DNA of 43,552 nt from Bacteroidota bacterium. Lineage in GTDB: Bacteria; Bacteroidota; Rhodothermia; Rhodothermales; JAHQVL01. Below are positions 10,198 through 26,422 of the stretch, in pieces. The first letter of the stretch is position 1. Each line of letters begins with the position of its first letter. The position numbers and the translations under genes were made by a program. The notes below the pieces were generated by a model. That model was not told the origin of the DNA. It did not search any database and saw nothing but the letters and a program-made list of their open reading frames with translations. The stretch lies in the NCBI GenBank assembly GCA_039111535.1, contig JBCCIM010000026.1, positions 1 to 43,552 on the forward strand. The letters run 5' to 3'.

Positions 10198-12771
10198 ATG
10201 CTGCTAGTTAATATGAAAATGAGTATCAACAGTATTTTATTCGAGCCCCCAGCACGTTCTTCTTTTATTCGCCGATTGGGCCGAAATTTTTTGATGATGG
10301 CTCTTTTGTCGTTGTTCATCGGGACTCAAAATGCACATGCCCAATCCGGTGCTCCTGTATGGGACGATCAGTTTGCGGCTTATGGCGTCGACGGTATTGT
10401 GCTTTCAGCAGTCGTAGATAATGGCGGCGTATTGTACATCGGGGGTGAATTCTCTCGCGCCGGCGGTATTGCTGCAGATGGTATTGCCCGATGGGATGGC
10501 TCAGCCTGGGCCACCCTGGGTGGTGGACTCGGGGCCGGCTTCTCCGGCGTTGTTCACGCCATGGTTATGGCTTCTGACGGGAGCCTGTTTATTGGTGGCG
10601 AATTTGCCGAAGTTTTTCAGGGCAACGGTAATCTGACCGAGGCATTTAATGTTGCCCGCTGGACAGGCTCTAGCTGGGAGCCACTGGGTACCGGGGTTGA
10701 CGGACCTGTGTACTCGCTTGCTGAGGCGCCGGACGGTGTCATCTATATCGGTGGCGAATTTGGTATGGATGGTTCGGGTGAGTTTGAGCTTAGTAAAATT
10801 GCTGCCTGGGATGGTGCAAATCTCTCTTCCGTAGGAAACGGATTAGGAACGTTTAGTGGTGTCCAGGTTCGGGCGCTCGCGTTTGACAGCCAAGGGGACC
10901 TGTTTGCAGGCGGTGCTGAATTGGCTGGTGGAATTTTTAAGTGGGATGGTAGTGCCTGGGCAACCATCGGCGCGCGCCATCAGGGTGTTGTGAATACCCT
11001 CGCGTTTGATAGCAACGATGCCCTGTATGCCGGCGGTGACTTTCAGGCAGTCATTCAATCAGATGACGCAGAATTGCAAGCCAATCGTATAGCGCGCTGG
11101 AACGGTGCCTCCTGGGAAACGCTTGGTACCGGATTCGATGGCGAAATTACGGCGATGGGATTTGATATGGGTGGCATGCTCCACGTAACCGGATTGTTTG
11201 GTGCACGCGGAGATGGCGCACTGTTGCGCAACTTGGCCCGATGGAATGGCGACTGGGAGGCCGTTGGTAACAGTGATGACGAAAATTTATTCGAAAGCCT
11301 GAATGCGCTGGCTTTTACCCCTGCAGGTGGCCTGTACGCCTTGGGTGACGTTCAGCACTTGGGAGGAACGCTTGTGAATGGCGTTGGCTACTGGGATGGA
11401 CAGCGCTGGCAGGGTACGGGTGGTATGGGACTGGATGATGCTGTCAAAGCGCTGGCTTTTGATAGCAGTGGCATCCTCTATGCCGGCGGCAGCTTTGCAT
11501 ATAGCGGACCTCGCCACGCCGGCCACGTTGCCGCATGGATTGATAACGCCTGGGCACCGCTTGGAGAAGGGGTACAGGGGATTGAGATTCGTGCCCTCAC
11601 CAGTGGCACCAACCGGAAAATGTATGTCGGTGGCGATTTTGCCATGGTCCTACAAAATGGTGGTACGGGGCTCGTGGCCTACAATTTTGCAATTTGGGAT
11701 GCCGTAACACAAAGCTGGTCTACGCCAGGAACGGGTGTGAATGGTGACGTGCACGCTATTGCGGAAGACGCAAATGGCAATGTATATATCGGAGGTGCCT
11801 TTACCCAGGATGGTAGTGAGCAAGAGGCGCGCAATTTTATAGCGATGTGGGATGGGACTGCATGGTCAACGCCTGGGGGTGGGATGGATGGCCCAGTTTA
11901 TGCCCTGGCTGTGAACAATGCCGGCGAAGTAATCGCTGGCGGTGCCTTTACACAGGCAGGTACAGTGGGTAACACGGCATACCTCGCTAAATGGGATGGT
12001 GCAGCATGGGCTCCGCTCTCCGATAACACTGTGCTGGATGCTACCGTTCATGCGCTGCATGTCGATGCTGCCGGTGGTGTATATGTAGGCGGTGAGTTTA
12101 CGCAGGTAGGCACCGCAACCGAAGCCAATTATATCGCGCGCTGGGCTGATGATGCGTGGGCGCCGCTGGGTTCACCAAATAGCAACGGCTTAAGCGGTTG
12201 CTGTGTCTATGCGATTTCCGGAGCGACGGGTGAGGCAATTACGGTTGGTGGAGACTTTGAAGGTGTGCGTAACCCGGTAGGGCCAGATCAACAAGCAAAC
12301 CGCGTTGCCATATGGCAGCCTGCGGGCGGCTGGTCACCGCTGGATTCCGGCGTTGACGACCGGGTACTCGCGCTTGCTTCAAATGGTGAAGATGTATTGG
12401 TAGGCGGGGACTTCAGGGTAGCAGGCGGACTGGCATCTTCCTTTGTTGGGCGCTGGAGCAGCAATGAAATGCTTGTCTCAACCGAAGAGGTTGCCGGATT
12501 ACCCGAAGCCCCAACTGTATTAGATATTTATCCTAACCCTGCGGCAAGCCGGGCGCGGCTTAATGTAGCCGTGAACAGGGCACAGGAAGTACGTGTTACG
12601 CTGTTTGATATGCTGGGTCGGCGTGTTGAAGAGGCTTTTTCAGGTTATTTGGCTGCTGATGAGAAACACGTAATCGAACTGAATGCATCTCGCCTGTCCG
12701 CCGGGATGTATATGGTTCGCATCCAGGGCGATTCATTCACGGAATCTCGTTCCCTGGTTTTGGTCAAATAG
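10198..12771 (+). CDS. Secreted repeat (probable beta-propeller) protein with T9SS sorting domain
   Basis: This 857-residue protein has a signal peptide (hydrophobic MALLSLFIG, cleavage near AHAQS). About 14 imperfect repeats of roughly 50 residues follow. Each is built from a strand LYIGGEF or close variants, then a variable loop, then ARWDGSAWATLGGGL-like Trp/Gly-rich sequence. This is the spacing expected of propeller blades. The last 85 residues are a Por/T9SS type A sorting domain (LDIYPNPAASRARL, LFDMLGRRV, LSAGMYMVRI, ending in VLVK). It is therefore secreted and probably attached to the cell surface. Ligand and role are unknown. Codon 6 (10213) and codon 8 are also possible ATG starts. 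Confidence 0.85.
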   Translation: MLLVNMKMSINSILFEPPARSSFIRRLGRNFLMMALLSLFIGTQNAHAQSGAPVWDDQFAAYGVDGIVLSAVVDNGGVLYIGGEFSRAGGIAADGIARWDGSAWATLGGGLGAGFSGVVHAMVMASDGSLFIGGEFAEVFQGNGNLTEAFNVARWTGSSWEPLGTGVDGPVYSLAEAPDGVIYIGGEFGMDGSGEFELSKIAAWDGANLSSVGNGLGTFSGVQVRALAFDSQGDLFAGGAELAGGIFKWDGSAWATIGARHQGVVNTLAFDSNDALYAGGDFQAVIQSDDAELQANRIARWNGASWETLGTGFDGEITAMGFDMGGMLHVTGLFGARGDGALLRNLARWNGDWEAVGNSDDENLFESLNALAFTPAGGLYALGDVQHLGGTLVNGVGYWDGQRWQGTGGMGLDDAVKALAFDSSGILYAGGSFAYSGPRHAGHVAAWIDNAWAPLGEGVQGIEIRALTSGTNRKMYVGGDFAMVLQNGGTGLVAYNFAIWDAVTQSWSTPGTGVNGDVHAIAEDANGNVYIGGAFTQDGSEQEARNFIAMWDGTAWSTPGGGMDGPVYALAVNNAGEVIAGGAFTQAGTVGNTAYLAKWDGAAWAPLSDNTVLDATVHALHVDAAGGVYVGGEFTQVGTATEANYIARWADDAWAPLGSPNSNGLSGCCVYAISGATGEAITVGGDFEGVRNPVGPDQQANRVAIWQPAGGWSPLDSGVDDRVLALASNGEDVLVGGDFRVAGGLASSFVGRWSSNEMLVSTEEVAGLPEAPTVLDIYPNPAASRARLNVAVNRAQEVRVTLFDMLGRRVEEAFSGYLAADEKHVIELNASRLSAGMYMVRIQGDSFTESRSLVLVK

Positions 12772-13199: not shown

Positions 13200-14627
13200 A
13201 TGAAAACGGTTGTTACAAATAGTAAAATATATAGATTGACACAGCGCCTGACATTTGTTTTGATGATCGCTTTGCTGGGATTTACGCCATTCCAGCAACC
13301 TGAATCGCAAACTGAAATCAGAAGAGTTTCGTTTGCCTCCCGTTCAGATGGGCAGGGGATTGTGATCCGTTTGCATGCAAAAGCGCCTTTAAACGCGTAT
13401 AGCGAACCGCGTTTTGATGACAACAACCAGATCGAAGTCATCCTCTTTAACGCAAAACTGGCGCCTACCTACAAGTCTGATTCGCCATTTGAGCCAGTTG
13501 TCGATTTTGACGTGAACGAGCGAAATGGACACCTCGTGTTCAAATTCTCGCTGGAAGACACAATTTCTGTACAGACAGCAGCGTATCCTGATCAGGGTAC
13601 AAACGATTTGCTAGTGGGTGTTACGAAGGTTGCTGATCAGCACCAGATACCTGTTGCAGCTGTTTCAGACTCAGCAGATCGTGGGAAAAAATTACCAGAC
13701 ATGTCGGTCAAGAAAGTGACCACCAAGCCAGTAGCAACGACTAAAGATGCTGATCTTTCTACTGCTGGTGTAGACCGTAAAACGCTGCCAACCAATACAT
13801 TGAAAAATGAGGCAATTGCGAAGGCTGTTGCCAAAGAATCTGACGTCAGGGATGTAAAAGCTGTTGAATCGATGCCCATCAGTTCCGTCGCGCTCACTAC
13901 GGAAGAGAAGGCAGAGAAGTGGACCCTTGATACTGTTGTAATAGACGCCGGCCACGGAGGGCATGACTCTGGCGCTGTTGCAAACGGTATCATGGAAAAA
14001 GACGTCAACCTTGCTGTTGCCTTGAAGCTGGGGGCCTACCTCAAACGCTTCCTCAAAGTCAACGTTGTATACACCCGTACCAATGACAGCTTTGTTGAGC
14101 TCCAGGAGCGCGGTCACATTGCAAATGAAGCCGGCGCTAAGCTGTTTATTTCCATCCACGCCAACTCAGCACCTTACTCTAACAAGGTCAGTGGCACCGA
14201 AACCTACATTCTTGGCCTGCACCGTACCGAGAAGGCCAAAGACGTGATGGAGCGTGAAAACGCGGTTGTAAGCATGGAAGCCAATCCGGACCAGTACAAT
14301 GCGTTTTACCAAAACAGCATTTTACGGACGCTGGCGCTAAGTGCCAACCTGCGCATGAGTGAAAAACTGGCAGGTGAAATTGAAAGCCAGTTTGCAAATC
14401 GTGCCAATCGCCAGAGCCGCGGTGTGAAGCAGGCAGGCCTGATTGTACTATGGGCTGCATCCATGCCGGCTGTGCTGGTGGAACTCGGATATCTCACAAA
14501 CCGCTTCGAAGCGGCATATCTCAATAGCAACCAGGGGCAAGATTACCTCGCAAGTGCTATATTCAGGGCTGTTCGCGATTTCAAACAGGAGTACGAAAAA
14601 GGGCTCAACCTGCCGGCTGCCAATTAA
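13200..14627 (+). CDS. N-acetylmuramoyl-L-alanine amidase (AmiC type, amidase_3)
   Basis: This zinc amidase cleaves the amide bond between MurNAc and the stem peptide and usually acts in daughter-cell separation. Of 475 residues, the first 35 hold a signal-like hydrophobic segment and about 40-145 an AMIN-like beta-rich region. About 155-240 is a charged Lys/Thr/Val linker, and from about 243 it is the amidase_3 catalytic domain. Zinc ligands are visible: His252 in DAGHGGHD, Glu266 in GIMEKD, His320 in SIHANS; the catalytic Glu428 is in VELGYLTN. A regulatory insert with RENAVV and NQYNAFYQN-like sequence is present. It is 87 bases upstream of apt. Confidence 0.93.
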   Translation: MKTVVTNSKIYRLTQRLTFVLMIALLGFTPFQQPESQTEIRRVSFASRSDGQGIVIRLHAKAPLNAYSEPRFDDNNQIEVILFNAKLAPTYKSDSPFEPVVDFDVNERNGHLVFKFSLEDTISVQTAAYPDQGTNDLLVGVTKVADQHQIPVAAVSDSADRGKKLPDMSVKKVTTKPVATTKDADLSTAGVDRKTLPTNTLKNEAIAKAVAKESDVRDVKAVESMPISSVALTTEEKAEKWTLDTVVIDAGHGGHDSGAVANGIMEKDVNLAVALKLGAYLKRFLKVNVVYTRTNDSFVELQERGHIANEAGAKLFISIHANSAPYSNKVSGTETYILGLHRTEKAKDVMERENAVVSMEANPDQYNAFYQNSILRTLALSANLRMSEKLAGEIESQFANRANRQSRGVKQAGLIVLWAASMPAVLVELGYLTNRFEAAYLNSNQGQDYLASAIFRAVRDFKQEYEKGLNLPAAN

Positions 14628-17760: not shown

Positions 17761-18924
17761 ATGCTTGAAGAAGGCAGTTTCAGGCTCATAATGCTGTTGC
17801 TTAGTACAGCACTTGGGCTTTCGTTTTTGATAGAGCGGCTTTTGGAGTTTCTCAATGGTCTGTTTAAAAAGCTGGCGTTCTCGGATCTCGACTGGTTTGA
17901 ACAAAAAGGACAACTTCCTGCTGTTTTGCAACGCGAGGTAAGAGATGAGGATCTGACGGAAGCCGACTTTAATGAGCAATACGAACCGGTGTTGTTCACG
18001 ATGAAAGCCATGGAGGCGCGCAATACATTTGAAACGGCGCAACGCTTCTGGTTGCAACTCATCGGTGTGCTGGCTGGCATTGCCGTTTGTTGGATTGCGA
18101 AATTTGGCTTGTTTGGTCCGCTCGCTGCCTTTGATGGGTTGCAGGGGGGCATGGACTGGGTTTTGACCGGCATCCTGATTGGAGGAGGTTCTCAGCCTAT
18201 CCATTTCTTAATCAAATTCCTTAATCAGCGCCGTGTAGTTGAAGCCGGCCCGCCGGAAGTACTTCCCGTGGTCTCACCATCTGGTGTAATTGTGGATCTT
18301 GGCAACGATCCAGATCCCTTCTTCAAAATCCTCGATGTCCCTTACAACGGCGGGTATCGCCCAGAAACGTTGGAAAACAGAAACATCAGACCCGCACCGC
18401 CGGACTTGATCGTATACCATCATACTGCGCTGCATAGTGATGCTTCATTTTTTGATGTGGTACGGGAAATTGTTGAAGTAAAAGGCTGGTCTACCGGATA
18501 CCACAGCGTGATTGCTGATGATGGCGTAATCAACAACTTTTGCCGATGGGATCGCACGGGGGTTCACGCACTTGGCGTCAACAGCCGTTCACTCGGTATT
18601 GCCCTGAACGGTAATTTCCATTCGCAGCCCGGTGACCCGTTTAGCAATGATAGCGGACAGTTTGGCAATTTACGCCCGACGGATATCCAGTTGCTTTCTG
18701 CTGCCAAAGTTGTTGCGCTTTGGTGCCATCTGTACAACATTCCAGTCAAATTTGGCGAGACCATTGTTTCGCACCGCGATGTGCGGCCTACAGCCTGTTC
18801 GGGATCGAATTTCCCGTATGACGCCTTTGAGGCGTTGGTAAAAAACTGTTTTGAAGCATGGCAATCCCACGACGCGCAAACTGAACTGATTTTTTACAAG
18901 CAGAAACAGCTTATTTACGCCTGA
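17761..18924 (+). CDS. Membrane-anchored amidase_2 (PGRP-like) peptidoglycan amidase
   Basis: From ATG 17761 it encodes 387 residues; a TTG nine codons upstream is also in frame. The N-terminal 160 residues form a membrane module with helices near 8-30, 98-118 and 130-150. It contains SFLIERLLEFL and TGILIGGGSQPIHFLIKFL (136-154). From about 215 it is a zinc N-acetylmuramoyl-L-alanine amidase of the T7 lysozyme/PGRP fold. That domain has YHHTA with a zinc His near 220, STGYHSVI, and SHRDVRPTACSGSNFP with His338 and Cys346. The amidase domain probably acts on peptidoglycan while held at the inner membrane. The next gene encodes a protein with the same membrane module alone. Confidence 0.88.
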   Translation: MLEEGSFRLIMLLLSTALGLSFLIERLLEFLNGLFKKLAFSDLDWFEQKGQLPAVLQREVRDEDLTEADFNEQYEPVLFTMKAMEARNTFETAQRFWLQLIGVLAGIAVCWIAKFGLFGPLAAFDGLQGGMDWVLTGILIGGGSQPIHFLIKFLNQRRVVEAGPPEVLPVVSPSGVIVDLGNDPDPFFKILDVPYNGGYRPETLENRNIRPAPPDLIVYHHTALHSDASFFDVVREIVEVKGWSTGYHSVIADDGVINNFCRWDRTGVHALGVNSRSLGIALNGNFHSQPGDPFSNDSGQFGNLRPTDIQLLSAAKVVALWCHLYNIPVKFGETIVSHRDVRPTACSGSNFPYDAFEALVKNCFEAWQSHDAQTELIFYKQKQLIYA

Positions 18925-18957
18925 TTTTTACACCACATAGTCTATCTAAAAAAGACC

Positions 18958-19560
18958 ATGGAAACGATACTTACGATTACCTACCTCTACATGCTGGTAT
19001 TGCTGATGGCCCTGCTGATTGAGCGGGTGATGGAGGTTATCATGACAATTTGGAATGTTGTGGAAGTCCGATTGCAGGCGCATCATTTCTGGAATCAGCG
19101 GACAGAAACGTTAATGAAGCGTTTTGCTGCGCAAGTTGAATCTAAACGAGCCAGAAATGCGCTGCATTCGCTTGGCCTGAGCCGGCGTATTCGTCAGTAT
19201 ACAGACATCGAACAGGAAATTCGGCCCGGGCAATCCATTGAGTTTTCCAGCGAAGCCGTACGCTATGCCTTTGTCCGCACGTTTGCTTTTTTTGCAACCT
19301 CCGCTATGGGCATTGGTCTGTGTCTTCTGGCTGATGTAAACCTCATCGCTATCATCAAGCAGGCGCTTGCGCCGCAATCGATTCCTGTGTTGGATGCCCT
19401 GGGTGAACCGCTGCAGCATCTGGTAAGCGGATTGGTCATTGGCCTTGGTGCTGAGCCAGTCCACCGTGTAATTAAAGGCCTCGAAGCGGCAAGGGATTGG
19501 CTCGACAAACGTAACCGCCTCAACAACGCGCTTTCTGAGTCAATCCAGATTCGGGGGTGA
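18958..19560 (+). CDS. Membrane protein sharing the membrane module of its neighbour
   Basis: This 200-residue protein has no recognised catalytic domain. It has an N-terminal membrane helix (about 7-30) with LMALLIERVMEVI, an amphipathic basic middle (about 40-95), and two further hydrophobic segments (about 105-135 and 150-172). It ends in the motif SGLVIGLGAEPVHRVIKGL (157-175). The IERxxE motif and the GxxIGxGxxPxHxxIKxL motif match those in the membrane part of the amidase gene 33 bases upstream, in the same order and spacing class. The two are therefore paralogous modules in one operon. A scaffold or holin-like role is possible but unproven. Confidence 0.8.
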   Translation: METILTITYLYMLVLLMALLIERVMEVIMTIWNVVEVRLQAHHFWNQRTETLMKRFAAQVESKRARNALHSLGLSRRIRQYTDIEQEIRPGQSIEFSSEAVRYAFVRTFAFFATSAMGIGLCLLADVNLIAIIKQALAPQSIPVLDALGEPLQHLVSGLVIGLGAEPVHRVIKGLEAARDWLDKRNRLNNALSESIQIRG

Positions 19561-19658: not shown

Positions 19659-19695
19659 AAACACCCGTTGGGTCTTCAAGACCCGACGGGTGTTT
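19659..19695 (-). terminator. Strong hairpin terminator at the end of the cox-like operon
   Basis: A stem of about 17 bp (19659-19675 with 19679-19695, one G/T wobble) contains ACACCCGTTGGGTCT. On the minus strand it ends in GGGTGTTTTTGC, a T-run that suits termination of the operon whose last stop is at 19788. On the plus strand only three T follow, but it can also end transcription from the membrane-protein gene. Confidence 0.88.
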
Positions 19696-19787: not shown

Positions 19788-20957
19788 CTACCTGATCTGT
19801 GCAAGCACCTTTGTCAGCTGCTCGAGAGAGACCAGGTTGTGCACGGGTAACAAGTGGTCTACGTAGGGGAGGGCGGCTTGCATGCCCTGGGTGAGGGGTT
19901 CGTAATTGCTATACCCCATGAGCGGATTGAGCCAGATAAGCTGGTGGCAACTGCGACGCAGGCGCTGCATTTCTGATGAAAGTACGGTCGTATCTCCCCG
20001 GTCCCACCCATCGCTGATGATGAGTACGACACTGTTGCTTTTCATAACACGACGCAGCCAGGTGAAGTTGAACGTTTTAATTGCATCGCCAATTTTAGTC
20101 CCTCCGGCCCAGTCTAGCACTTCTTTAGAAACAGCCGCAAGGGCTGCATCTACATCCTGGTGTTTCAAGTGGTGGGTGATGCGAGTTATACGAGTCCCAA
20201 AGACAAAGCTTTCTACGCTTCGTTTGTCTGCCGTAAGCAGGTGCATGAAGTGGAGGAGCATCTGTGCATACCGCTCCATGGATCCACTGATATCGCAGAT
20301 GAGCACAACCGGACGCGGTTTTTTCTTTTTTGCAAGATGGGCCAGACGCAGTAATTCCCCTGCATGCCGGCTGCTGTCTCTTACCGTGGCGCGGAAATCG
20401 AGTTTAATGCCGCGAGACGCAGGCAGCAGCCTCCTCGAGGCGTAGGGCGGAATCGGCCACTTGAAACGTGCCACGTATTGCTTGGCAGTTGCGATATCTG
20501 CATTGGTAAACGCAGCAAAGTCTTTTTGTCGAAGGATCTCTGTCTGGCTGTAGGTTACAATTTGCTCGAGCTCAATTTCCGTTGCTGAGGTCTGTTCGCT
20601 TCGTTTTTTAGGCTTGGGTTTCTGGTGCTCTCTCAGCGCTTCCTGGATGCGGTGGTAGCCGCCGGCGCTGGCATTTACCGGAATTTGTGTTTGCTGAAGC
20701 AGCCATTGCATCACCTTGGGGAATTTGGTTGGTGCTTTCCAGAAAAGCTTGAAGGCCAAGTCAAAAAGTTCGCGTTCTTCGTGGCGACTAACAAGGCAGG
20801 CATGCAGCGCATTTTTGACATCTTCTTTCTCTGATACGCCCACATGCGCAACAGCTTCAAGTGCCACCATCATTTGTGCCGGGCCAATGGCAAAGCCAAG
20901 CCGGCGCAACACCCGGCCAAAAGCAACAACGTGATCTGAAAACGAATGCGCTTCCAT
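19788..20957 (-). CDS. coxE: VWA domain protein, CoxE type
   Basis: CoxE-like proteins work with a MoxR-type ATPase (CoxD) in maturing the metal site of CO-dehydrogenase-like enzymes. This one has 389 residues. The N-terminal half is helical and charged. The von Willebrand A domain begins near 215 with the MIDAS motif DISGS (222-226), a later Thr in WAGGTKIGDA and Asp in IISDGWDRGD. That is a complete metal-ion adhesion site. Its ATG overlaps the moaA stop (TAATG), so it is translationally coupled, and it is the last gene of the operon. Confidence 0.9.
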   Translation of the reverse strand: MEAHSFSDHVVAFGRVLRRLGFAIGPAQMMVALEAVAHVGVSEKEDVKNALHACLVSRHEERELFDLAFKLFWKAPTKFPKVMQWLLQQTQIPVNASAGGYHRIQEALREHQKPKPKKRSEQTSATEIELEQIVTYSQTEILRQKDFAAFTNADIATAKQYVARFKWPIPPYASRRLLPASRGIKLDFRATVRDSSRHAGELLRLAHLAKKKKPRPVVLICDISGSMERYAQMLLHFMHLLTADKRSVESFVFGTRITRITHHLKHQDVDAALAAVSKEVLDWAGGTKIGDAIKTFNFTWLRRVMKSNSVVLIISDGWDRGDTTVLSSEMQRLRRSCHQLIWLNPLMGYSNYEPLTQGMQAALPYVDHLLPVHNLVSLEQLTKVLAQIR

Positions 20958-21946
20958 TAGCCGCCAATAAGGATCATGGGGCGGTTTTCCATGTCTTTCA
21001 GGTTGTACATACCGGCATGAGCGGCTTTTTTTCGTTGTACAGCCGCCTGGATAATGGTACCCAGTTCTTCATCAGATGCGCCAGTGCGCATCGCATCACG
21101 CAAACTCACTTCAGCATTGCCAAAGAGACATACTTTCAGGTTGCCATCCGCAGTAAGGCGCAACCGGTTACACGATCCACAAAACTGCTCACTCATCGAA
21201 GTGATGAAGCCTACCTGGCCCGCATAACCCGGTACCTTGTATGTTTTTGAGGTGTCATTCGGCCCATCCTCACACCGCGCAAGTGTTGGGTGCTCCTGCT
21301 CGATAATCGAAATCATATCTTTGTAGGAGAGGAATTGGGTATCATTCCAGCCGTTGCCGCCAAACGGCATATACTCGATAAACCGCACTTCAATTTGCTT
21401 GTCGCGTGTAAGGGATACGAAGTCGGCAAGCTCGTTCTCATTGAAGTTTTTCATCACCACGCAATTGACCTTTACTGGTGCGTAGCCATATTCAAGGGCT
21501 AGGTCAATGGCCTGCATGACCAGGTCAAAGCCTTTCCTCCGGGTGATGAACTCAAACTTTTTAGGATTCAGCGTATCCAGGCTGATGTTCATCAAATTGA
21601 TGCCTGCTGCGTGCATCATTTTAATTTTCTTGGGGACGAGCAAGCCATTGGTCGTAATGGCAAAGGTCTCAATACCTTCAATTTTCCCGAGCCTGGCAAG
21701 CAACTTGTCGACATCCTTTCTAACAAGGGGCTCACCACCGGTAAGCCGGATTTTGTTTACGCCGGCTGCAGCAAAAAGCCGGACAAGCCGCTCGATTTCC
21801 TCGAACGTCATGATGTGATCTTGTGGCTGCAGTTGTACCCCTTCTTCCGGCATACAATACTGGCACCTGAGATTACAGCGTTCTGTGAGCGAAATACGCA
21901 GGTAGCTGTGAAAACGGCCAAAGGTGTCTGTAAGTATTTCTGACAT
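20957..21946 (-). CDS. moaA: GTP 3',8-cyclase MoaA (molybdenum cofactor biosynthesis)
   Basis: MoaA is a radical-SAM enzyme catalysing the first step of molybdopterin synthesis. The protein has 329 residues. The SAM-binding Fe-S cysteines are in CNLRCQYC (24, 28, 31), followed by the [12 protein letters not shown] segment. The second cluster is in [21 protein letters not shown], and the protein ends with the required double glycine (MILIGG). Its position inside a molybdenum hydroxylase operon, coupled to coxE, suggests a dedicated supply of cofactor. The other pterin genes (moaC, moaD, moaE, moeA) are not in the window. The leader region upstream contains a hairpin. Confidence 0.97.
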
Positions 21947-21972
21947 CCTGAATTACGTATCCAACGTTTAGC

Positions 21973-22015
21973 AAAAAAGGCGAACGGAGTGCCCGAAAGT
22001 TGTCGGGGGAAGCAC
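21973..22015 (-). promoter_or_regulatory. Hairpin and T-run in the moaA leader
   Basis: On the minus strand, arms GTGC and CCCGA pair with TCGGG and GCAC (22015 to 21989, with a small bulge). A run of six T follows ten bases later (21978-21973), 27 bases before the moaA start. It may be an attenuator or leftover terminator after the ATPase gene. It does not show a Moco riboswitch that I can recognise. Confidence 0.4.
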
Positions 22016-22084
22016 AAGGATCCGGCTGATGAGACCGCGCCATAAAAGTTGCGTTACGGCAATTCCTAATATACATCATAGGTG

Positions 22085-22999
22085 TTAGTGCTGCATGTCA
22101 GCGAGCCTTACACGGGCTTGCTCAAGAAGCGTGGTCGCCTGCGATCCTGACACCTTGCTGATGTCGTCGCGATATTTCAGGAGTGTACCCAGCGTATCGT
22201 CAACAACCTCAGCGTTCAGTTCATTTTGTCCAAGGAGCATGAGTGCACGGGACCAGTCGATGGTTTCAGCAACGCCTGGCTGTTTATACAAATCAGTTGT
22301 ACGAAGTTCGTGTAAGAAAGCCACAACTTGTTTCGCAAGGCTCTCGGCAAGCCCCGGGACCCGTGTGCGGATAATGGCGAGCTCCTTTTCGAATGCAGGA
22401 TAATCAACCCAATGGTACAGACACCGGCGTTTCAGCGCATCATGTATTTCACGGGTTCGGTTTGAGGTGATAACTACGTGCGGGGGGATGGTTGCTTTGA
22501 TGGTCCCTATTTCTGGTATGGTGATCTGGAAGTCAGAGAGGAGTTCAAGCAGGAACGCCTCAAATTCTTCATCAGCCCGGTCGAGTTCATCGATCAGTAG
22601 CACGATGGGCACTTCCTTTGTGCCAGCTTCAAGTGCATTCAAGAGGGGGCGTTTGATCAGGTAGGACTCCCCAAAGATCTCTTGCTGGATAACGGAGCGA
22701 TCCTGGCCCTGCTCTGCTTCGAGCATACGGATTTGCAGGATCTGACGGGCGTAATTCCATTCGTATACTGCAGTGTTTACATCCAGTCCCTCGTAACACT
22801 GTAGCCTGATGAGTTGTCCGCCCAGCATGGTTGCCAGCACTTTGGCAACTTCGGTTTTGCCGACGCCGGCTTCTCCCTCAAGAAAAAGCGGGCGCTGCAT
22901 GTTCAGGGCCAGAAACAGTGCGGTCGCGAGGCTACGGTCTGCAATATAATCGTGGGCACGCAACCCTTCCTGAACAGCTTCGATGCTGGCGTACGGCAT
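22085..22999 (-). CDS. coxD: MoxR-family AAA+ ATPase, CoxD type
   Basis: This 304-residue AAA+ ATPase has Walker A GEAGVGKT (42-49) and Walker B IVLLIDELD (132-140). It also has VVITSNRTREIHDALKRRCLYHWVDYP, which carries sensor 1 and the arginine finger. The segment LQCYEGLDVNTAVYEWNYARQIL is typical of the MoxR subgroup found beside CO-dehydrogenase-like genes. CoxD is thought to remodel the apo-enzyme during metal-centre assembly, together with the VWA partner CoxE two genes downstream. The length is normal. It is 153 bases after coxM. Confidence 0.9.
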   Translation of the reverse strand: MPYASIEAVQEGLRAHDYIADRSLATALFLALNMQRPLFLEGEAGVGKTEVAKVLATMLGGQLIRLQCYEGLDVNTAVYEWNYARQILQIRMLEAEQGQDRSVIQQEIFGESYLIKRPLLNALEAGTKEVPIVLLIDELDRADEEFEAFLLELLSDFQITIPEIGTIKATIPPHVVITSNRTREIHDALKRRCLYHWVDYPAFEKELAIIRTRVPGLAESLAKQVVAFLHELRTTDLYKQPGVAETIDWSRALMLLGQNELNAEVVDDTLGTLLKYRDDISKVSGSQATTLLEQARVRLADMQH

Positions 23000-23152
23000 A
23001 GTGTGACTACTGAAGGTGGAAAAACAACAAATATCTCCGGGAATAACGACCCAAGTATAAACTTCGTTGCATGTTGGTGGCCCAAGATGTCTTCAGCTTA
23101 CAAACAGATCATTAAGCCCAAAGATATTTGTCTACTAACCAGTATGGCAGCA

Positions 23153-24019
23153 TTATCCGCGAGCTTGTTTTGCCGCAGCCATAATTGCACGGCGAGCCAT
23201 TACACCACACAAATGTGCGCGGTATGCGGCGCTGCCACTGAGGTCGCTCAGCATATCATCTTCATCCGGTTTATGCTGACAGGCTGCTGCAATGCTTTCG
23301 CCGTCCAGTGCCGTGCCTTTAAGCGCATCTTCCATAGCTGTTGCCCGGAAGGCGCAGGGTGCAGCACCTGTAATGCCAATGCGAGCATCAACGCAGCGGC
23401 TGCCATCCATAGTGATGTGTGCTGCAACGCCGACAACTGCAAAGCGGGATGCCGGATTGGGAAACTTGGCATATGCCGTACCACTGCTTGCGCCGCCGGC
23501 AGGGAAGGAGACGCGGGTAATGATTTCTGCATCGTCCAGGGCAGTGTCAAACATACCCGTGAAAAAGTCATCTGCGGAAATATTGCGCGCACCATTGGGG
23601 CCATGCACGGCAATTGTTGCATTTAGCGCGAGTACAATCGCCGGATAATCAGCGGCCGGGTCGGCATGGGCAAGGCTGCCGCCGATGGTGCCTTTGTTAC
23701 GCACCTGCGGATCGCCAATACCCGACGCCGTCTCTGCTACAGCCGAACAGTGTTGCTTCACTATATCCGACATCTCAACGGAGCGGTGCGTGGCCATTGC
23801 ACCAATGTGTACCTGATTGCCAGAGGCTTCAATGCCATCAAGCCCAGAAATCCCACTGAGATCAACAAGCATGGTTGGTGCATTGAGGCGGAGCTTCATT
23901 GTGGGAATGAGGCTGTGTCCACCTGCCAGCAACTTGGCTTCGTCTCCGTGGGACTGTAATTGCGCAACTGCTTCTTCTATGGAGCCGGCGCGCTGGTATT
24001 CAAATGAATTGGGAGTCAT
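23153..24019 (-). CDS. coxM: FAD-binding medium subunit of a CO-dehydrogenase-like molybdenum hydroxylase
   Basis: This subunit passes electrons from the Fe-S subunit to FAD. From the ATG at 24019 it has 288 residues. FAD-binding motifs are AGGHSLIPTMKLRL near the N-terminus and TIGGSLAHADPAADYP (the AGGxS and TIGG loops of this family). The start at 24019 gives MTPNSFEYQRAGSIEEA, as in relatives; an upstream in-frame ATG at 24064 would add 15 residues and nearly touch coxL. It sits between coxL and the CoxD-type ATPase gene. Confidence 0.95.
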   Translation of the reverse strand: MTPNSFEYQRAGSIEEAVAQLQSHGDEAKLLAGGHSLIPTMKLRLNAPTMLVDLSGISGLDGIEASGNQVHIGAMATHRSVEMSDIVKQHCSAVAETASGIGDPQVRNKGTIGGSLAHADPAADYPAIVLALNATIAVHGPNGARNISADDFFTGMFDTALDDAEIITRVSFPAGGASSGTAYAKFPNPASRFAVVGVAAHITMDGSRCVDARIGITGAAPCAFRATAMEDALKGTALDGESIAAACQHKPDEDDMLSDLSGSAAYRAHLCGVMARRAIMAAAKQARG

Positions 24020-24073
24020 AATATGGGATAAGAAATTTGGTCTTTGCTGGAAAAAGGAAATCACACGGGTTGG

Positions 24074-26422
24074 TTATGACTTCCCGTTTTGCAGAGCCTG
24101 CCAGACACGCTCTGGTGTCATTGGCATGTCGAGGTCGCGAATGCCGTGGCTGTAGAGCGCGTCGATCACAGCGTTGGCAACACAGGCGGTTGCTGCGATA
24201 GCGCCGGCTTCCCCAACGCCCTTGGCACCCAGTGGATTGTGCGGGCAAGGCGTAACGGTCCGGTCTGTTTCAAACTGCGGGAAATTATCTGCTTTAGGCA
24301 GGTTGTAATCCATAAATGAACCGGTGACCAACTGGCCGGCGTCGTCGTAGTGCGCGCCTTCAAAGAGGGCCTGGCCGATGCCTTGCGCAAGGCCACCGTG
24401 TACCTGGCCGTCTACAATCATCGGGTTGATGACGTTACCCACATCATCCACACAAACATATCGGAGGAGGTCAACTTTGCCCGTTTCGGGGTCGATCTCA
24501 ACCACCGAAATGTGCGAGCCGAAGGGGAAGGTGAAGTTGACCGGATCGTAAAATCCGTTTTCTTCGAGCCCCGGTTCAAGGCCTTCCGGATAATCGTGGG
24601 GGATGTAGGCGGTTAGCGCAACATCACCAAAAGAAACGGAGCGGTCTGTACCTTTTACAGTGAAATTACCGTCTGAAAAGTCCAGGTCGTCTTCTGAGGC
24701 TTCCAGCTTGTGGGCAGCTATTTTACGGGCTTTGGCTTTTACTTTGTCGAGTGCTTTTACGATAGCGCTGCCACCCACTGCAAGGCTACGCGAGCCGTAG
24801 GTGCCCATCCCAAACGGAATCTGCGCTGTGTCGCCGTGTACCACTTCGACGTCGCCCATATCTACCCCTAACTCAGAAGCCACAATTTGGGCGAACGTCG
24901 TTTCGTGGCCCTGGCCGTGTGAATGGGATCCGGTGTACACCTGTACCTTTCCAGTAGGATGAACCCGAATCGAGGCACTTTCATAGAGGCCGGCGCGGCC
25001 ACCGAGTAAGCCTACAACTTTGGAGGGTGCAATACCGCAAGCTTCAATAAAAGCGGAGAAGCCAATGCCAAGCAGCCGGCCTTCAGCCCGCGCTTTTTTC
25101 TGTTCTTCACGGAGTGCTTTATAATCAATGATTTCAAGCGACTTATCCAGCGCACCTTCATAGTTGCCGCTGTCATATTGAAGGGCAACCGGGGTGTCGT
25201 AAGGGAAGGCGTCGGGGGGAATGAAATTCTGCCGGCGGAGTTCTGCCGGATCTCTACCCATTTCGTGCGCAGCGAGGTCTACCAGCCGTTCTACAAGATA
25301 GGTTGCTTCGGGGCGGCCAGCGCCGCGGTAGGCGTCTACCGGCACGGTGTGCGTCATCACTCCCAGTACATTCACATAGATGTTGGGGGTCCGATACTGG
25401 CCGGCGAGCAACGTGCCGTAGAGGTATGTTGGTACGGCGCCTGAGAAAGTCGAGAGGTAGGCGCCAAGGTTGGCGAGGGTCTTCACGCGCAGGGCAACCA
25501 TGTTGCCGTCTGCATCAAACGCCATTTCAGCATCGGACTGGTGGTCGCGGCCATGGGCGTCTGTGATAAAGCTTTCGCTTCTTACAGCGGTCCATTTAAC
25601 GGGCCGGCCGATTTTTCTGGTTGTCCATGCGCAAATGGCTTCTTCCGGGTAATGGAAAATCTTGCTACCAAATCCACCCCCAACATCAGGCGAAACCACG
25701 CGCACTTTGTGCTCTGGCAGACCGAGGACGAACGCACACATCAACAGGCGGATGAGGTGAGGGTTTTGAGAACTGGTGTAAAGCGTGAGCTCGTCGCGTG
25801 CACTGTTGTAGTCACCTATGGCAGAACGCGGTTCAATGGCATTGGCCACCAGGCGCTGGTTTTTGAAACTCAGGCTGGTCACGTGGTGCGCGCTTGCTAT
25901 CGCTGCATCGGTTGCTTCTTTGTCGCCTAATTCCCAGTTAAACGACGTGTTGTTGGGTGCGCCGTCGTGTACTTGCGGTGCATCGCTTTTGAGTGCTGCA
26001 GAAGAATCTGTAACAGCCGGCAGGACGCCGTAATCAACAAACACATGCTCGGCTGCTTCAATTGCCTGGGCTTTGGTTTCTGCAATCAGGACTGCAATGC
26101 TGTCTCCTACATGCCGCGCTTTGTCGGGCGCAAGCGGGTAGTGGGGGGGCTCCTTCTGATCCTCGCCAATCGCCCAGCCATTGGGTAGCGACAGCACGCC
26201 GTCGTCTACCATATCTTTGCCTGTGAAAAATGCCACCACACCCGGCATTTTCATGGCTTCGCTGGCATCAATCGAATTGATGGTGGCGTGTGCATGTGGG
26301 CTGCGTATGATATACGCGTATGTCATCTTTGGCAGTACGATATCGTCTGTATACTGCCCTTGACCTGTTACAAACCGCTTGTCCTCAACTCTTTTGACCG
26401 CTGATCCAATATATCCTAACAT
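24074..26422 (-). CDS. coxL: Molybdopterin-binding large subunit, form II CO-dehydrogenase-like
   Basis: This 782-residue catalytic subunit binds the Mo-molybdopterin cytosine dinucleotide. Visible landmarks are [22 protein letters not shown] at the N-terminus, DVGGGFGSK near 246-254, the active-site loop AYRGAGR at about 364-370, [27 protein letters not shown], and the catalytic glutamate in GAKGVGEAG (about 738). The AYRGAGR loop marks form II; genuine CO-oxidising form I enzymes carry AYxCSFR with the copper-binding cysteine. The protein is full length and 55 bases downstream of coxS. The substrate is not known. Confidence 0.95.

Follow-up and report, generated by a model that had tools for sequence, protein, structure and literature searches.

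The window, by which we mean the whole stretch of DNA that was analysed (43,552 nucleotides), carries on its forward strand two neighbouring genes, here called A and B, which are separated by exactly 33 bases. Gene A (17761..18924) encodes 387 amino acids counted from its ATG, although a longer start at a TTG (17734) is possible, and is a fusion of a three-helix membrane module with a zinc N-acetylmuramoyl-L-alanine amidase. Gene B (18958..19560; 200 amino acids) is the membrane module standing alone, without a fused enzyme. The N-terminal module of A (17761..18240, residues 1-160) contains the motif IERLLE at the end of helix 1 (17830..17847), of which E25 and R26 are invariant in all members of a 12-member alignment, and the helix 3 motif TGILIGGGSQPIHFLIKFL (18166..18222), which holds a GxGxxPxH break and the invariant residues T136, G137, I140, G141, G143 and P146. 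The corresponding motifs of B are IERVME (19018..19035; E22, R23 and E26 invariant in 12/12) and SGLVIGLGAEPVHRVIKGL (19426..19482; G164, P167 and H169 invariant). The open reading frames, their spacing and these motif strings are present as a preliminary description of the window had reported them.

Upstream of the pair lie an SDR gene and a gene for a small secreted-looking protein, and downstream a convergent coxE-like gene. Between B and the latter a very stable hairpin was found (19659..19695; 17 bp stem, 3 nt loop, -35.7 kcal/mol, z -5.9), which is a probable terminator of the A-B unit. GC and GC3 of A and B resemble those of the neighbouring genes, and with this host-like composition there is no evidence for a recent horizontal import of the pair. 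Elsewhere in the window, a separate Amidase_3 gene (13200-14627, about 3 kb upstream of A-B) probably encodes an ordinary host amidase. The region 19788-26422, with a CoxE-like VWA protein, a MoaA-like radical SAM protein, an AAA ATPase and FAD and molybdopterin subunits, is a CO-dehydrogenase-type molybdoenzyme cluster, and a large propeller-type protein (10198-12771) has a Por secretion tail, which implies that the host has type IX secretion.

A shared membrane module and its predicted topology

The membrane regions of A and B are homologous by sequence comparison, along the entire module rather than at the two motifs alone. BLASTP of window A against window B gave an E-value of 6e-6 across 62 residues, and a profile built from three amidase modules retrieved B at E 0.0078 in a search of the window's whole genome. 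Single-family profiles each retrieved the other family among the open reading frames of the window (1.4e-13 and 1.2e-9), and hhalign aligned 12-sequence profiles of A and B over 160 columns with a probability of 98.3, an E-value of 1.5e-14 and a score of 104.7. As a control, the columns of B were permuted inside the hydrophobic and the non-hydrophobic class, so that the membrane pattern was preserved; 40 such shuffles scored at most 24.7 with a probability of at most 3.2. Profile comparison thus found the two regions to be related, not unrelated, and the shared module proposed from the window alone is upheld.

The same holds for the statement that this module, comprising about the first 160-165 residues of A and all of B, has no named family, since no match was obtained in Pfam, NCBIfam, PHROGs or PADLOC; in PADLOC, only relatives of window A and B gave matches, all weak. 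A Retrotrans_gag match to B (E 0.031) was below the cut-off and was disregarded. A limited search of the open-access literature found no description of the A-B module or operon. An apparent charge pairing at the motif, with K in A and E in B, was seen in one clade and was not significant over 28 pairs (p 0.17). Solitary module proteins occur in other bacteria (L013 1354-1773, 139 aa; L015 1450-2460, 336 aa; L029 9467-10273, at most 268 aa). These resemble A and B in having IERxxE-like and GxG-type motifs and in matching the A and B profiles, but differ in that no neighbouring amidase was recognised, and they hint at a larger unnamed family.

In the AlphaFold2 model of A (mean pLDDT 71) the module helices span residues 2-64, 89-113 and 130-141/144-161, the third being interrupted at 142-143. 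The model of B has a pLDDT of 84, and in both models the interruption of helix 3 falls at GxGxxP. This helix holds G, P, H and frequently one charged residue. Foldseek with the B model returned no match at E <= 0.001 among the solved folds of the PDB or the viral folds of BFVD, and the best VIA-align hit (Z 6.1) does not rise above the background of helical models.

Over 27 A-B pairs, lysine and arginine are scarce at the N-terminus and in the hairpin that links helix 2 to helix 3, and frequent directly past helix 3 and at either end of the loop joining helices 1 and 2. The hairpin contains fewer of them than the C-terminal tail in 26/27 A and 27/27 B proteins. Moreover, six relatives of B that belong to a second clade carry a Sec-type signal peptide immediately ahead of helix 1, which places that end outside independently of the charge bias. 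Both modules are therefore predicted to be N-out/C-in. With three predicted helices in this orientation, as read from charge bias and signal peptides, they resemble class I holins, which have three transmembrane helices, N-out and C-in (PMC9636201). A predicted C-in orientation puts the amidase of A on the cytoplasmic side of the membrane, where it could not reach peptidoglycan without an opening of the membrane or a re-entrant helix 3; the latter, to which the interruption in the models might correspond, would put the amidase in the periplasm.

The amidase domain of A

The fusion to a peptidoglycan amidase, read earlier from the window alone, is borne out by a match of A to PF01510 (Amidase_2) with an E-value of 7.6e-18 and 65.5 bits (gathering score 26), at residues 212-348 (18394..18804). 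The zinc triad, formed by H220 (18418..18420), H338 (18772..18774) and C346 (18796..18798), is invariant among 14 A sequences. The zinc set H-H-C is that of T7 lysozyme and the PGRPs, whereas AmpD has H-H-D. Residue 344, two ahead of the zinc cysteine, is Thr or Lys in 12/14 sequences, as it is at the equivalent site of PGRP-LB and T7 lysozyme. The best PDB match of the A model in Foldseek is an endolysin amidase (6srt, E 5.7e-7), and the top matches include the endolysins LysCS/LysC and Ts2631, PGRPs and T7 lysozyme. The amidase of A is probably active.

Relatives and a four-gene operon

A adjoins B in all 29 loci examined, which are spread over Bacteroidota, Ignavibacteria, Calditrichota/KSB1 and Pseudomonadota. 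Within this range the occurrence is patchy. Among 60 near relatives of the window's genome a credible match was found in only one other genome (G001, of the same family), in which the copy of A (L004/L009; L009 4400-5320) is decayed by an intra-module deletion and a frameshift and has lost its amidase core, and no match to B was found near it in the 12 kb read. A further match in this genome (G001:C214, L002) lies inside an ABC-transporter-like open reading frame and was taken as chance. A phylum sample of 394 genomes contained two more carriers, and a scan of GTDB contigs gave nine further loci (Calditrichota/KSB1, Ignavibacteriales, Bacteroidia, a gammaproteobacterium and an unclassified bacterium) and one more distant solitary module. 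Carriers make up 19/82 genomes of the Calditrichota/KSB1 group, 2/398 of Pseudomonadota and 2/247 of the phylum of locus L023, the last count including a genome (G721, L082) that may be the same as G185, as their coordinates are nearly equal. Neighbouring genes at the other loci are mostly housekeeping genes that vary between loci. The patchy spread and the pseudogene decay in G001 indicate that A-B is dispensable.

In 19 of the 29 loci, A and B are followed by two further genes, C and D, as they are in one more locus that is cut by the contig end. C (about 140-165 aa) has two hydrophobic helices, predicted to be a membrane anchor, and then a long coiled coil, the side of which is ambiguous by charge. 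D (about 180-205 aa) begins with what looks like a cleavable signal peptide, continues with a coiled coil and closes with apparent beta strands, after which an aromatic residue, usually Phe or Trp, stands in 10/11 proteins. Mantel tests between the distance matrices of the four families gave r 0.84-0.91 (0.91 for A vs B), so the parts have diverged together. With the adjacency at every locus, this co-divergence substantiates the view that the tandem pair belongs together. In a second clade (L068-L073) A and B have a short loop, and the sufficiently long loci contain C-like and D-like proteins, assigned by position. At L068 the D protein itself terminates in a hydrophobic helix, and a separate small signal-peptide protein that reads like an outer-membrane beta-barrel is encoded directly after it (2183-2632). 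Two genomes (G499, L021/L037; G506, L028/L038) each have two cassettes, one A-B-C-D and one A-B alone. At L022 an endolysin-like Amidase_3 gene (156-692; phrog_435, E 2.8e-42) lies directly upstream of A-B-C-D, giving two consecutive genes for wall amidases.

The window itself carries the two-gene form, and its genome contains no homologue of D. C and D were invisible to the preliminary description because the window copy is without both; the conserved module and operon exceed what one window displays. In trees the A-B pair of the window is closest to C-bearing loci (L044 and L063/L064/L067), with support that is not firm; this position makes a reduced cassette possible, and the window pair may represent one.

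A proposed lysis-like device, its alternatives and known systems

A cytoplasmic wall amidase would be useful mainly behind a gated membrane, and we therefore favour, tentatively and with less than even confidence, a non-phage chromosomal device that works like a holin/endolysin/two-component-spanin cassette but is made of unrelated parts, of which the window holds a reduced A-B version. A and B would form a heteromeric inner-membrane complex, with the peptidoglycan amidase of A held at the predicted cytoplasmic face. Upon a trigger, the three-helix modules would form an inner-membrane lesion, through which the amidase could get to peptidoglycan and cut it, serving as endolysin. In full cassettes, C (an inner-membrane anchor with a coil) and D (an exported coil with an outer-membrane-type C-terminus) would then bridge or disrupt the outer membrane. 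No regulator or trigger for the cassette was found.

In favour of this lysis reading we count the constant A-B pairing, the four-gene order in 19 loci, the common module, the co-divergence, the intact zinc triad, the endolysin fold matches, the predicted class I holin topology, the dispensable and patchy spread and the Amidase_3 gene upstream in one relative. The operon moreover ends in a membrane-anchored coil followed by an exported coil, as Rz-Rz1 do, and most D proteins have aromatic ends. Against it we count the empty searches of phage, plasmid and viral contigs, the lack of a holin match, the loop of 50-100 residues, the ambiguous side of the C coil, the host-like composition, the housekeeping neighbours and the two observations on C and D given below (the FtsB control and the missing lipobox).

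The module was not found in phages and plasmids (tblastn) or in viral contigs (three scans), and no phage genes were recognised in the loci read. The best PHROG holin match had an E-value of 0.078, in 1/12 members, and no holin family matched better than E 0.01 and no holin fold matched. Having no sequence match and not being found in phages, A and B are not members of the holins. The earlier holin-like proposal draws support only from the predicted topology and from the four-gene arrangement; searches by sequence and by fold gave no holin match. An i-spanin is an inner-membrane anchor with a periplasmic coiled coil and an o-spanin an outer-membrane lipoprotein (PMC6139136, PMC9636201). C matched Rz-like spanin PHROGs at best at 2e-6, the commonest family being matched by 5/9 members; E. 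coli FtsB, included as a housekeeping control, matches that same family at 0.0034. This weakens the spanin likeness of C, and we do not claim C as a spanin. No lipobox was read in 11 D proteins. With D lacking a lipobox and FtsB sharing part of the matches of C, we do not assign C and D to the two-component spanins.

The main rival, which we consider almost as likely, is a constitutive, non-lytic complex of A to D that has A-B as its membrane core and spans both membranes and the wall, and in which the amidase opens or trims peptidoglycan locally, either to let the complex through or to remodel the wall. In this reading the amidase would be periplasmic and helix 3 re-entrant, with which the break at GxGxxP in both models would agree. 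The predicted export and apparent outer-membrane anchoring of D and the co-divergence of all four parts suit it as well, and carriage by 19 of the 82 Calditrichota-group genomes and the host-like composition in the window fit a housekeeping role. The K/R-rich tails past helix 3 (26/27 A, 27/27 B) nevertheless favour C-in, and two-gene forms would lack the bridge, which the genome of the window does not supply by a D encoded elsewhere.

The predicted cytoplasmic position would also suit a membrane-anchored recycling amidase acting, like AmpD, on imported muropeptides with B as an aid to import, and AmpD is itself an Amidase_2 protein in Pfam. We judge this improbable, as the third zinc ligand is the Cys of T7 lysozyme and PGRPs and not the Asp of AmpD, the closest folds are endolysins and PGRPs, and C and D are left without a role. 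There is little likelihood, too, that the cassette is an anti-phage abortive-lysis module for the early killing of infected cells: the set of parts looks lethal and its spread is patchy and dispensable, but PADLOC gave no convincing match and no defence genes were recognised adjoining the cassette in the loci read. The injection-type system considered earlier, in which A and B would aid the release or firing of a contractile injection system or tailocin, is very improbable and was rejected. A wall amidase with membrane proteins might serve particle release, and chromosomal lysis genes have a precedent in the explosive cell lysis of Pseudomonas, for which a phage-type endolysin is used (PMC4834629). 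A search of 13 genomes, however, gave no Phage_sheath_1 match over the cut-off and sub-cut-off matches in one genome only.

If the lysis reading is true, cellular bacteria of several phyla own a full three-layer lysis kit around an enzyme-pore fusion, with a bearing on how eDNA and vesicles are released and on the origin of lysis systems. Its stricter form, a non-viral chromosomal lysis machine of diderms with parts unrelated to holins and spanins, in which the wall-cutting enzyme, fused to a pore-forming module of its own, is kept on the cytoplasmic side of the inner membrane, we hold to be rather doubtful. If the non-lytic reading is true, A to D would make up a so far undescribed complex across the envelope, with a wall hydrolase of its own.

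Among known systems, the lambda-type lysis cassette (S holin, R endolysin, Rz/Rz1) is similar in that membrane protein(s) and a wall enzyme, a membrane-anchored coil and an exported coil follow in order. A-B(-C-D) differs from it in being chromosomal, in having its membrane module duplicated and fused to the amidase, in the cytoplasmic loop of 50-100 aa, unlike small holins, and in a D with a beta-strand end instead of a lipobox, and no sequence relation to the lambda-type cassette was shown. A large cytoplasmic loop linking helices 1 and 2 is what the module has in common with ExbB, TolQ and MotA, together with the predicted N-out, C-in topology, which is established for ExbB and TolQ; it is unlike these proteins in that neither B (12 members) nor window A has a Pfam match to them, and in VIA-align the B model scores against them (Z 3.3-3.6) amid unrelated rows. 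With the Amidase_2 enzymes T7 lysozyme, the PGRPs and the LysC/LysCS endolysins (6ssc/6srt), A shares the fold and the H-H-C zinc triad, but these matched enzymes are soluble domains, whereas the enzyme of A is attached to a three-helix module.
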